A stretch of DNA of 64,000 bases, taken from Picochlorum sp. 'celeri'. Its lineage: Eukaryota; Chlorophyta; Trebouxiophyceae. The stretch covers positions 372,001 to 436,000 of the forward strand of contig JAACMV010000003.1 in assembly GCA_010909725.1 (NCBI GenBank). Reading direction: 5' to 3'. The position numbers and the translations under genes were made by a program. The stretch's first letter is position 1, and every line of letters begins with the position of its first letter. The notes beneath the pieces were generated by a model. The model was given only the letters and a program-made list of their open reading frames with translations. It did no database searches and was not told where the DNA came from. Of the stretch, positions 31,283 through 35,145 are shown in pieces.

Positions 31283-31375
31283 AGGAAAAGGTCGCGCGTT
31301 CGAGCCGCGTAGCGGGTGGTCAAACAACTTTACAGTCAGCCCGCTTAGCTCAGCTGGAAGAGCGTTTCCTTCCTA
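31283..31375 (+). tRNA. Circularly permuted tRNA-Arg (anticodon CCT)
   Basis: The 3' half precedes the 5' half. 3' half, 31283-31318: position 38, anticodon-stem GGAAA, variable AGGTC, T-arm GCGCG-TTCGAGC-CGCGT, acceptor strand AGCGGGT, discriminator G. A 20-nt intervening sequence (31319-31338) follows. 5' half, 31339-31375: acceptor GCCCGCT, TA, D-arm GCTC-AGCTGGAA-GAGC, G, anticodon stem TTTCC, then TTCCTA ending at position 37. All stems pair: acceptor 7 of 7 (one G-T), D 4, anticodon 5, T 5 (one G-T). The anticodon CCT reads arginine AGG codons. The B box precedes the A box in the gene. Flanks can form a helix around the anticodon junction, as needed for splicing-endonuclease circularisation. 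Confidence 0.85.
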
Positions 31376-31669: not shown

Positions 31670-32070
31670 ATGGTAAACACCACGCTATTCTGTCCCACGT
31701 GCGCGAATCTCTTACAGGGTACGTCGGTTTACAGATTTGGGTGATTACTATTGCAGATGAACTAATACAACGAACGTTTGTTGCAGTTGAAAAGGTACAA
31801 GGGCTGCATTATCAAAAGTGTTCGTCCTGTCCCTACGTGTTTGAAATCAGCAGCACCATTTCAAAGCAGGTGGCGTTGGAAAGAAAAGAGGTTGACGACG
31901 TATTAGGCGGCGAAGACGCGTGGAAGAACGTCCAGAAGGCATCTGCTGTGTGCGAATCCTGTGGAAACAAGGAAGCTTACTTTAGGGAAATTCAGACAAG
32001 GTCTGCAGATGAGCCAGCAACACTGTTTTTCCGGTGTACAAAGTGCGCCAAAGTTTGGAAAGAGAACTAG
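31670..32070 (+). CDS. RPC11: RNA polymerase III subunit RPC11 (C11)
   Basis: Inferred exons 31670-31718 and 31787-32070 (68-nt intron) give 110 aa, the usual length. The N-terminal zinc ribbon (F-C-P-T-C...C-S-S-C) and the C-terminal TFIIS-like ribbon (C-E-S-C-G...F-F-R-C-T-K-C) are complete, with the catalytic acidic loop R-S-A-D-E-P that stimulates RNA cleavage. The K-E-V-D-D-V-L-G-G linker is diagnostic. C11 is needed for Pol III termination and proofreading. The next gene's ATG lies 1 nt after the stop, and a Pol III tRNA gene lies just upstream. Confidence 0.94.
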
Positions 32071-32071
32071 T

Positions 32072-33112
32072 ATGCTAATGATGCGTTCGGCTCTGTCATT
32101 GCAAAAGGGCTGTGGCGTTTTCCGTGTCCGAACGAGCAACAAAAAGCAGCATGTGTGCCGCTCGTCTCAGACAGAAACAGCCGGAGATGTCGCTCAGTTG
32201 AGGGAGGAGGTGGCTGCTCGGACGGCAGCCATGGCTAATTTGGAGAAGCAGCTTCTTCATGTAGAAAATCTGAGGGCAGAGGAGTTGAGGACTGCCATAT
32301 CGAGGTTTGAGGAACTCGAGGAGGCCCTGCTGATGGCTGAAAAGAGTATTTTAAAGGAAGAAGAATCAGTAGCTCATCTGACGAAGCAACTGGAGGCGAA
32401 AGATAAGGAGATTTCTGAAGGATTGAAAAAGCTTGAGGTTGCGATGAAGCAAATGCATGCATTCAAAAAGGAAGCAGAGGATGCTAAAGCTCGGGAAGAG
32501 GAGGTCCGTGATGCTGCCAAGGCAGAGCTGGAGGCTTCTCAGAATCTTGTGGCGAAAGCGTATGCCCTCCTGACGGAATGGAAGGAGGATCAAAAGGTAA
32601 TTGTGACAACGGACAAGGATAACAGCAGCAGCAATGGGAGTGTCCTCAAGGAGGATGAGCTGGAGACTGTTCTTGCAGAGCTAGATTTGCTGAGGGGAGA
32701 GCTTGAAGCAGAGTTAGAGACAAACGAGGATGCCATTGCACGAGCCGAGGCAGCCGAGGCTGAACTGGAAGAGATCCGAAAGGGAGCACTCAAGCCTTCC
32801 AAAGCTCTTGATCCTGCAGAGATGGAACAGATTGCAAAGAAGCTGGCAGCATCCCAACAGGAGTTGACTGCATCCAAAACAGAGGAGGCTCGCTTGAGAA
32901 TTCTTGTTGAAAAGCTGGAAGCTGAAAAGGCAGAGATGGAGCAACAGAAATTAAGCTTAGAAAGCGTAAATAACAAGGTTTCCATGTCCAAGTATACAAA
33001 AGAACTCGAGGAACGCAATAGAGAGCTTGTTGGGGATCTCTCAAAGAGCAAAACAGCCTTGGAGCAAGCCAAGAATCTCCTTGTCTCATCCTCTTCGTCC
33101 ATCTTATCCTAA
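32072..33112 (+). CDS. Long coiled-coil protein, probably plastid-targeted
   Basis: An intronless 346-aa protein starting 1 nt after the RPC11 stop. The first 30-35 residues are Arg/Ser/Lys-rich and lack acidic residues, like a transit peptide. Residues from about 40 onward are almost wholly Ala/Glu/Lys/Leu heptad-like coiled coil, ending in a Ser-rich tail. No enzymatic domain is visible. Such proteins in algae are often plastid structural or envelope/thylakoid-tethering proteins, but this one is not identifiable. It should be translated either from its own mRNA whose leader lies inside RPC11, or from a two-gene mRNA. Confidence 0.7.
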   Translation: MLMMRSALSLQKGCGVFRVRTSNKKQHVCRSSQTETAGDVAQLREEVAARTAAMANLEKQLLHVENLRAEELRTAISRFEELEEALLMAEKSILKEEESVAHLTKQLEAKDKEISEGLKKLEVAMKQMHAFKKEAEDAKAREEEVRDAAKAELEASQNLVAKAYALLTEWKEDQKVIVTTDKDNSSSNGSVLKEDELETVLAELDLLRGELEAELETNEDAIARAEAAEAELEEIRKGALKPSKALDPAEMEQIAKKLAASQQELTASKTEEARLRILVEKLEAEKAEMEQQKLSLESVNNKVSMSKYTKELEERNRELVGDLSKSKTALEQAKNLLVSSSSSILS

Positions 33113-33211
33113 TCTTGTAAATTCACGTATAAAAGAGTTGACACATTGTTCGTGTGGTCACATGGTAGATTGGCGTCCTCAATGGCAAAAGCAAAAGTAA
33201 GAATTGAAACA

Positions 33212-33310
33212 TTCTAATCAAGCCCCATGGACCGGACTCGGGCACGACCGCATTGCATGTGTGCATCGCGGTCGACAGGATTTGAACCTGCGCAGCTTGC
33301 GCTACTTGAT
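33212..33310 (-). tRNA. Circularly permuted tRNA-Ser (anticodon AGA)
   Basis: On the minus strand the 3' half comes first: 33310-33267 gives position 38, anticodon-stem TCAAG, a 13-nt long variable arm (AGC-GCAA-GCT type hairpin), T-arm GCAGG-TTCAAAT-CCTGT, acceptor CGACCGC and discriminator G. A 15-nt spacer (33266-33252) follows, then the 5' half 33251-33212: acceptor GCGGTCG, TG, D-arm CCC...GGG, anticodon stem CTTGA, then TTAGAA ending at position 37. Acceptor pairs 7 of 7 and the anticodon stem 5 of 5. The long variable arm and anticodon AGA identify serine. Leader CTAA pairs with loop TTAG, giving a perfect 4-bp central helix as in bulge-helix-bulge junctions. Confidence 0.87.
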
Positions 33311-33575
33311 CATTAGATATATGCAAACGGGGAAATATTCACGACATATAAAATATCGAGTTCCACCGGCGGACCCATCTTCGCCTATATACAGCGTCCG
33401 TGATACAATAATAACCCACTAGGAATATGCGCCAACGTATAGATATGCTGTCCAAGCATAATGCACACCATATACGGGTGTGGTCCCAACACGAATGCGT
33501 TCCTTACTGTCTCCTGTCTGGAGACTTTTTCTATACAAAGAATTTTGTTCTCAAAAGGATATCTTTACAAATAAT

Positions 33576-34634
33576 TTATTTAGAAGTCAATTCTTTCTCC
33601 AATTCCTCCAACGCATACACCACCTCATTATCCTGCTCAGAGTATCCCTGAAGCCTTGCTATCTTGGCACCCTGTGTCGCAGCCTCAGCAGCACTTTCCA
33701 ATTCTCCCCCAGCTTTATACGCCACCGCTAACAAGAGCCACACATCTGGAACAGCATCATTCTCCTCCAAAAGACCCTCCAAAATATCCGCCGCAGTTGC
33801 TGTCGAGTCATCCAATTCCAACAACAGCTTGGCCGTCTCAAAACGAAATTCATACGATGGCAGCATACGTTCACCCTTCTTCTCATCGCCATTGCCATTG
33901 TCATCTTCTTCTTCTTCTTCTTCATCATCATCCCACCATAACTGCAATGATTCCTTCAACAGCCCCAATGCCTCGTCCTCTCTCCCTTGAAGCACCCGCA
34001 AACTACAAAGAGCCTGCAACGGCTCTGGATTCTTACTCGTTCCACTTCCAGCTTCATGTAAAAGAGATTCAACCTCAATATAAAGACGAGACACCTCCTC
34101 TTCAGAATCATCCTCTGCCTCATCCAGTGCATCATGAATCAAACCCATCAACAGCTCGGCCAGCGAGCACAATGCCGACGTCAGATACTCCTCACTATTC
34201 TCATCATCCATATTCCTCAAAATCCCAACCCCCTGCCGCATCGCAGCCTCTGCCTCCTCCGTCCTCCCACAGGCATCCAACACCTGTCCCAAATACATGA
34301 ACTTTTCAAACCCAGTCATGGGAGCCAAATCACAAGCCTTCTGAAGCACCTTTATCGCCTCATCCTTTCTATCATTCGCAAACTCGGCCAGAAAAGATCC
34401 ATACCCATCCAAAAACTCGACATTCTCGGGCTCCCGGAGCACACACTCCTTGTACAGGGCCTCTGCCTGAGCCAAATCTTCACTCATCAGCGCAATCTCT
34501 GCTTGCATGAATAATTCCTCACAAGATTTTCTAGTACCATGCTGTTCATTTTTATTCTTTCGTCGCTGCGTTTGACCCTTACTATTGCTCCCATGCTGTT
34601 GCTGTGCATGGCGATGTTGGTGGTGATACCCCAT
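33576..34634 (-). CDS. TPR protein, probable RPL4 assembly chaperone (ACL4-like)
   Basis: An intronless 352-aa protein. A His/Gln-rich then basic N-terminus is followed by TPR-like helical repeats (A-E-I-A-L-M-S-E-D-L-A-Q-A-E-A-L-Y; L-Q-K-A-C-D-L-A; L-A-V-A-Y-K-A-G-G), an acidic loop with a run of Glu/Asp after 'LWWDDD', and a C-terminal helical repeat. The layout matches fungal/plant ACL4, a dedicated chaperone for ribosomal protein L4. The assignment rests on overall pattern; a general TPR protein is the alternative. Confidence 0.6.
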   Translation of the reverse strand: MGYHHQHRHAQQQHGSNSKGQTQRRKNKNEQHGTRKSCEELFMQAEIALMSEDLAQAEALYKECVLREPENVEFLDGYGSFLAEFANDRKDEAIKVLQKACDLAPMTGFEKFMYLGQVLDACGRTEEAEAAMRQGVGILRNMDDENSEEYLTSALCSLAELLMGLIHDALDEAEDDSEEEVSRLYIEVESLLHEAGSGTSKNPEPLQALCSLRVLQGREDEALGLLKESLQLWWDDDEEEEEEDDNGNGDEKKGERMLPSYEFRFETAKLLLELDDSTATAADILEGLLEENDAVPDVWLLLAVAYKAGGELESAAEAATQGAKIARLQGYSEQDNEVVYALEELEKELTSK

Positions 34635-35145
34635 CGTATTCTCCACTCCTCACATACGACACGCCACGAAATCACAACTTTTACTATGATTCAAAAATTT
34701 TGGAATATTGGAAGCAGATAAAACATGTCACGACAGACAGAACACAGAGGGTTCAAAGATCGATACCAATGCTCCCCATCAACCGATTGATTCAATCGGA
34801 TTTTTTACATTCCACTACTAGTAGGATGTGGATGATGAAAGCAACTTGCTGGGGGCAAAATTGCACACAATGAAAAATGTGCCATGACATTCCACTCGAA
34901 TACACACCCTCCTCCTCTCTTCCTACTAATCCTACTAGCGATAGAAGGAGTCTGATGTGATGGCTACTGGGTCTTACCCGTGCATCTCATTTTGAGGTGA
35001 TTTTTTTTACCCCCTCACATGTACATGTGAGAGGAGAGAGCATGTCAATGTGCCCTGGCAATTCTTGTTGGGCCCATTCATTTTTAAATGAAATGTTGGT
35101 ATACACACAATCACATTCATAGATTATATTACAAAAAACATAAAC
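34635..35145. promoter_or_regulatory. Divergent upstream region with a short palindrome
   Basis: This 511-nt stretch lies between divergent genes. A near-perfect palindrome occupies 34783-34799 (arms CCGATTGA and TCAATCGG around a single T) and is followed by T6 at 34801-34806. No coding potential is visible. Confidence 0.4.

Follow-up and report, generated by a model that had tools for sequence, protein, structure and literature searches.

A circularly permuted tRNA-Ser(AGA) gene in the green alga Picochlorum celeri, one of at least 20 permuted tRNA genes in a single haplotype

Here we present a circularly permuted tRNA gene in the tiny marine trebouxiophyte green alga Picochlorum sp. 'celeri' (hereafter P. 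celeri), in which the 3′ half of a class II tRNA-Ser(AGA) is encoded upstream of its 5′ half. The gene lies in a window of 64,000 nucleotides, by which we mean the whole stretch of DNA analysed (contig C3, positions 372001-436000; 45.9% G+C), and coordinates count from the first letter of that window unless a contig is named. The permuted gene is confirmed as real, and its sequence gives us high confidence that the locus is a working nuclear gene whose transcript is processed along the pathway proposed below. Because the kind is already known from Cyanidioschyzon, prasinophytes and Auxenochlorella, the gene by itself adds one case. What stands out is the count: at least 20 permuted genes with 19 anticodons were found in one haplotype, including a tRNA-Arg(CCT) gene in the window, a number that looks unusually high.

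Joined between positions 37 and 38, the two halves form an 84-nt tRNA-Ser(AGA), recognised both by our own permuted-cloverleaf parser and by ARAGORN, which labels the joined 84-mer tRNA-Ser(aga) (Table 1). A preliminary description, drawn from the letters alone, had placed the 3′ half, a 15-nt spacer and the 5′ half in that reversed order at 33310-33212 on the minus strand; the parser returns exactly these boundaries, and the genome search described below recovers the same order. It had also claimed complete acceptor and anticodon stems, a long class II variable arm and a perfect 4-bp helix between loop TTAG and leader CTAA, and these too are found. The acceptor stem has seven Watson-Crick pairs of seven and the anticodon stem five of five, while the T stem has four plus one G-U and the D stem three plus one G-U. 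The variable region of 13 nt (TAGCGCAAGCTGC) carries a 3-bp stem, AGC/GCT, and the class II arm is recovered by covariance model R2 as well as by the parser. The anticodon loop is TTAGAAA with U33, the T loop is TTCAAAT, and G18G19 and R15-Y48 are present when read by eye. G73 and a long variable arm are identity elements of tRNA-Ser, and both occur here together with a serine anticodon. The hallmarks of a permuted gene are likewise present: a 3′ half upstream on the same strand, a rotated sequence that is a tRNA, a junction of bulge-helix-bulge (BHB) or hBH type with all four loop-leader pairs formed, a short spacer and no encoded CCA. The D arm is unusual in its C10-G25 pair and long D loop, C10 being common to tRNA-Ser(TGA) of the same genome. 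In the predicted minimum-energy fold of the precursor the acceptor, T and variable arms are present and the D and anticodon arms absent. Mechanical open reading frames flank the gene at 31961-33112 (+) and 33576-34646 (-).

Table 1. Coordinates of the permuted tRNA-Ser(AGA) locus and its permuted neighbour in the window (models R1 and R2 are described in the text)
Feature	Position	Strand	Description	Basis
3′ half, tRNA-Ser(AGA)	33267-33310	-	tRNA positions 38-73; 44 nt; last base G73; no CCA	parser; model R2; genome search (query 41-84 = C3:405267-405310)
Intervening sequence	33252-33266	-	15 nt; 4-bp hairpin (TGCA CACA TGCA) predicted atop the acceptor stem	parser; RNA fold
5′ half, tRNA-Ser(AGA)	33212-33251	-	tRNA positions 1-37; 40 nt; ends TTAGAA; anticodon AGA	parser; genome search (query 1-40 = C3:405212-405251)
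Leader CTAA	33313-33316	-	pairs with loop TTAG (33217-33214); followed by TG, then a putative cut before A38	register supported across 19 genes
TATA-like sequence	33345-33350	-	candidate upstream promoter for Pol III, some 40 nt before the 3′ half	
TTTT	33193-33196	-	15 nt past the 5′ half; candidate Pol III terminator; second TTTT at 33190-33187	
Permuted tRNA-Arg(CCT)	31283-31375	+	3′ half 31283-31318; spacer 31319-31338 (20 nt); 5′ half 31339-31375	R1; parser

The junction was evaluated across 19 permuted genes of the same genome, one further gene (L082) being dropped as a copy of L079. In the register used, the cut falls after position 37 and before position 38, with positions 32-35 opposite leader positions -4 to -7, numbered backwards from 39. 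The helix between these positions scores 56.5 against a mean of 38.1 (sd 3.3) after leaders are shuffled among the genes, with none of 5000 shuffles as high, and seven slid registers (-3 to +4) stay at background level. Position 32 pairs with the leader in 17 of the 19 genes (shuffled mean 11.6, 0 of 5000) and co-varies with its partner: T-A ten times, C-G six, G-T once, unpaired twice. In the two unpaired cases, Ser(GCT) and Val(CAC), a 4-bp helix forms in an adjacent register; among permuted genes only Ser(AGA) and Met(CAT) form four Watson-Crick pairs of four in this one. The pair at position 32 resembles the anticodon-intron (A-I) pair, which we take to occupy exactly this position. Pairing of the A-I type is used by eukaryotic splicing endonucleases (PMC3978253). 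Being far above the level of reshuffled genes, the loop-leader pairing supports cutting by the tRNA-splicing endonuclease.

The assembly comprises 27,412,692 bases in 30 contigs, and C1-C15 and C16-C30 act as two haplotypes, with matches pairing across them; the published genome of the species is a phased diploid (27.43 Mb, 46% G+C) arranged as two 15-scaffold sets (PMC7225527). Searching the genome with the contiguous 84-mer returned two places only, on C3 and C23, each as two swapped pieces at 100% identity, and this search found no contiguous copy of Ser(AGA). The C23 allele is 99.97% identical across 3300 aligned bases with one gap, and is no independent test of conservation because the region is nearly homozygous. 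Rfam RF00005 detects 34 conventional tRNAs in the diploid, and by our own reading Ser(AGA) is absent from 30 of them; two of the other four are Pro(TGG) at C1:507758 (L114) and Ser(CGA) at C10:139473 (L086), and the hits at C4:806259 and its allele C30:820084 lie outside that reading. As the sole tRNA-Ser(AGA) gene found, the permuted gene is probably essential, and judged by its sequence it is very probably functional.

At a further locus, C14:382346 (L098), ARAGORN calls a tRNA-Ser(aga) when run in its mode that permits long introns, which made no calls in 400 shuffled sequences. Rfam gives there a different tRNA of 69 nt at 40 bits, with discriminator U, and the opposite strand bears a weak plastid-ycf2 match; the locus is perhaps plastid-derived. 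L098 was provisionally left uncounted as a second Ser(AGA) gene.

A permuted order might also be the residue of a partial tandem duplication, and the locus would then be a dead relic, its halves the unprocessed remnants of a tRNA gene that had been rearranged or duplicated in tandem. We regard such a relic as improbable, since all stems are intact in both halves, the junction helix is maintained with co-variation across 19 genes, and a second gene with the AGA anticodon turned up neither in the genome search nor among the loci read (L098 uncounted; C4:806259 and its allele outside the reading).

The permuted tRNA-Arg(CCT) gene, which the preliminary description had mentioned as the first of its kind in the window, is also real and lies 1.8 kb from Ser(AGA) on the opposite strand. 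It has a weak Rfam match to YrlA, a Y-RNA-like RNA, which we rejected as far below the cut-off (24.6 bits against 69). This match is what might suggest that Ser(AGA) is a permuted tRNA-like RNA with another role, either YrlA-like or a tRNA-derived element. Such a role is very improbable: Ser(AGA) has no such Rfam match, it forms a full cloverleaf with the expected tRNA-Ser identity elements, and it is single copy per haplotype and no repeat.

Standard searches pass over the locus. ARAGORN calls no tRNA anywhere in the unrotated window, and Rfam gives no match at Ser(AGA) at the gathering cut-off, nor near the locus at E up to 10. Covariance models of rotated tRNAs were built, whose E-values are rough because the models were short-calibrated. 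R1, built from nine rotated class I tRNAs of the P. celeri genome with no Ser among them (Arg(CCT), with another spacer, was included), scores Ser(AGA) at 30.7 bits (E 2.1e-7 over the window); a rotated alignment, A1, had been set aside for its unequal, misaligned spacers, and A2 was trimmed of three rows whose variable loops had 4 nt before R1 was made. R2, for which we combined one other permuted Ser gene with two conventional Ser genes that we rotated ourselves, using random spacers, yields 70.9 bits (E 1.1e-17 in 221 kb from 22 sources) with boundaries at exactly 33310-33212. It also matches the permuted Leu genes L091, L041 and L112, and its next match has 14.5 bits. The preliminary description had held that a poor score as tRNA-Ser in a covariance model would speak against the gene, and the R2 score leaves it standing. 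In 228,020 real bases, comprising the window plus 20 loci chosen for holding a B box, the parser found three permuted cloverleaves, namely the window's two and L041; 9,120,800 dinucleotide-shuffled bases yielded none. That the halves are chance look-alikes, as the blank ARAGORN and Rfam results might hint, is exceedingly improbable given no parser hit in 9.12 Mb of shuffled sequence and the E-values of two models that both exclude Ser(AGA).

For a working gene we propose the following pathway, its step order and circle taken from published work on other algae. RNA polymerase III would produce a single transcript of leader, 3′ half, spacer, 5′ half and trailer, in which the anticodon stem and the short TTAG/CTAA helix would draw the two outer ends together. 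The Sen2/Sen34 tRNA-splicing endonuclease would then cut after 37 and before 38, as the junction suggests, and a ligase, probably RtcB, would close the ends into a circle. RNase P (probably the protein-only PRORP) and tRNase Z would excise the spacer from the acceptor loop, with CCA added after its removal. Circular intermediates and splicing-type junctions have been reported for algal permuted tRNAs (PMC3978253).

A genome profile search with Pfam PF01974 gave matches on C7, C10 and at further places, and the translated stretches correspond to the catalytic domains of Sen34 (1.9e-16 to chain 6z9u_A) and Sen2 (8.9e-11 to chain 8iss_B). RtcB and PRORP have one match each per haplotype. The RNA-ligase (tRNA-ligase) family PF09511 had no match in the genome, but the controls were equally silent, so absence is not established. 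Sen34 occurs once per haplotype, and the Sen2-like domain appears with equal score at seven places (C10:613187, C16:614070, C9:1564, C12:1564, C26:1564, C21:81237 and C25:30222), of which the C10 stretch alone was read. Three of these matches lie about 1.5 kb from a contig start, and extra Sen2-like copies near chromosome ends are possible.

The preliminary description had also anticipated many more permuted tRNAs across the genome and called for a genome-wide scan with a table of isotypes. A partial census of one haplotype (C1-C15) bears out this expectation, with 20 permuted genes against 21 conventional ones. The B-box pattern GGTTCRANYCC had 187 matches against 157 for its reversed control; 94 of the 100 matches listed lie on C1-C15, and the 93 loci examined there (C4:806347 being left out) held 12 permuted tRNAs. 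Pattern GRTYNNNNGTTCRANYC had 96 matches against 29 in the control, 47 of them on C1-C15; the 45 examined (C14:22540 and C15:717537 left out) added seven permuted genes, L122, L124, L125, L126, L129, L132 and L133. Arg(CCT) in the window brings the total to 20. The permuted set comprises Leu(AAG, CAG, TAA), Ser(AGA, GCT), Arg(CCT, TCT and TCG, the last at two loci), Ala(AGC, TGC, CGC), Gly(GCC), Cys(GCA), Tyr(GTA), Val(AAC, CAC), Thr(TGT, CGT) and Met(CAT), which by eye is the elongator, the conventional Met gene L014 being by eye the initiator. ARAGORN returns the expected tRNA from the joined sequence in 20 of 20 cases. All 20 are of 37/38 type by construction, because the parser assumes that junction. 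Without shuffled controls, a T run was seen in all 20 trailers (29 to 60 nt examined) and a crude TATA-like string in 10 of 20 leaders.

The matches listed allow 15 of the 20 permuted genes to be compared between haplotypes: for 13 the matched string recurs unchanged at the corresponding position, and it differs for two Ala genes on C4. These genes, at C4:770731 and C4:267383, have likely counterparts at C30:784143 and C30:266435, one match being on the other strand, and gene conversion or inversion between alleles or paralogues is a possible source of the difference.

The 21 conventional genes on C1-C15 are 18 detected by Rfam together with Ser(TGA) (L040), Arg(ACG) (L085) and Pro(CGG) (L128). 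L040 and L085 both exceed the Rfam cut-off, and L128 is an ARAGORN call only, with no Rfam match at E up to 1. An intron was present in 10 of the 20 conventional genes read. Isotypes assigned by eye override the ARAGORN intron-mode label for L025 Arg(CCG), L029 Leu(CAA), L040, L085 and L114. Since the patterns are limited, the census sets a minimum for permuted genes and is incomplete for both kinds; genes split inside the T loop are invisible to it. With the RF00005 hit at C4:806259 left out, Ala, Cys, Gly, Thr, Tyr and elongator Met were represented solely by permuted genes. With the patterns used and the loci read (C4:806259-806368 left out), no gene in either order was found for Gln, His, Gly(TCC/CCC), Thr(AGT), Leu(TAG) or Sec; these may have other split positions or unusual T arms, or may have been missed.

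Several candidates were set aside. A relaxed parser run over loci without a known permuted gene gave one match, L046, which is implausible. Pattern RGACNNNNGTTCRANYC, for 4-nt variable loops, had 16 matches, four of them at known Glu genes, against 28 in its reversed control. An ARAGORN Val(aac) call in L042, with no Rfam match at E up to 1, and a Cys(aca) call in L053, which overlaps the permuted Gly gene and has no tRNA match in Rfam, were left uncounted.

Some permuted genes are related to or lie near one another. Two near-identical Arg(TCG) genes, L079 (C8:59346) and L082 (C8:537666), are oriented opposite to each other. Their 128-nt spacer is predicted to fold into a strong structure (-46 kcal/mol, without shuffled control), and their leader holds CCAGA, which could compete for the anticodon stem. 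Leu(AAG) at C2:997509 (L041) and Leu(CAG) at C11:444896 (L091) have in common the spacer stretches GGAGTTTCGAAATCGA and CTTCCCATCAAAGC and most of their halves, as if a permuted gene had been copied and its anticodon then changed. Val(CAC) and Val(AAC) (L125 and L126, at C5:52593 and C5:52994) are separated by some 400 bases and encoded on opposite strands. An element resembling a B box, GGTCCGGGGTTCGAGCC, is repeated at C4:1105094 (L057), C14:4631 (L094), C15:4123 (L106), C15:944813, C18:4680 and 9607, C27:4145 and C30:1116454, about 4 to 20 kb from a contig end where the end position is known; its flanks are near-identical in the three copies compared (L057, L094 and L106), and Rfam has no match to it in L057 or L106.

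Taken together, the P. celeri cell must probably cut and circularise RNA for many of its tRNAs. We think it likely that a large part of the tRNA set has the permuted form as its usual one: of the 41 genes found in one haplotype at least 20 are permuted, and about 10 more carry introns. Permuted genes also seem to multiply and change anticodon as such. Splicing endonuclease, ligase and opening of the circle would then be as basic to translation as RNase P. The tRNA sets that standard programs give for such algae can be badly incomplete. Cas9 work in P. celeri has reportedly been done, and since the alga is open to culture and editing, one can ask by experiment what lets permuted genes arise and persist, how swapped A and B boxes are read by Pol III, and whether a circular precursor serves control.

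The permuted genes of C. merolae were reportedly described in Soma 2007, and those of prasinophytes and Bigelowiella in Maruyama 2010. The account of Soma 2014 (PMC3978253) counts 34 permuted genes among six algae and an archaeon, with a maximum of 11 per genome (C. merolae, of 43 tRNA genes) and a longest tabulated spacer of 74; if our census holds, P. celeri exceeds every organism in that table. The preliminary description rightly called the gene class II, and its view that class II makes a permuted tRNA especially informative carries less weight, permuted Ser and Leu genes being already common in Table 1 of the same source. In the open-access literature searched, to which most subscription journals do not belong, we found no report of permuted tRNAs in Picochlorum and, among trebouxiophytes, reports for Auxenochlorella alone; the Picochlorum SENEW3 paper describes tRNAs annotated with tRNAscan-SE.

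Like C. merolae, P. celeri has swapped halves, a BHB junction and no encoded CCA; the C. merolae junctions are 20/21, 37/38, 50/51 and 59/60, whereas our parser covers 37/38 alone (PMC3978253). In the order of its halves, its 37/38 junction and its hBH type the gene resembles the type II genes of prasinophytes and the Bigelowiella nucleomorph (PMC3978253). It shares isotype and anticodon with the permuted Ser(AGA) of Micromonas pusilla and the B. natans nucleomorph, with a spacer of similar range, 15 nt against 64 and 5 (PMC3978253 Table 1), and a permuted Ser(AGA) is also reported from the A. amoebiformis nucleomorph (PMC4494063). Unlike the prasinophytes, with 3 to 6 permuted genes per genome (PMC3978253), the host belongs to the Trebouxiophyceae and has at least 20. 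Auxenochlorella UTEX 250-A, of a different genus, is likewise a diploid trebouxiophyte with a small genome; its tRNAscan-SE set had gaps, and permuted genes were subsequently detected (PMC12636532; preprint PMC12633428).
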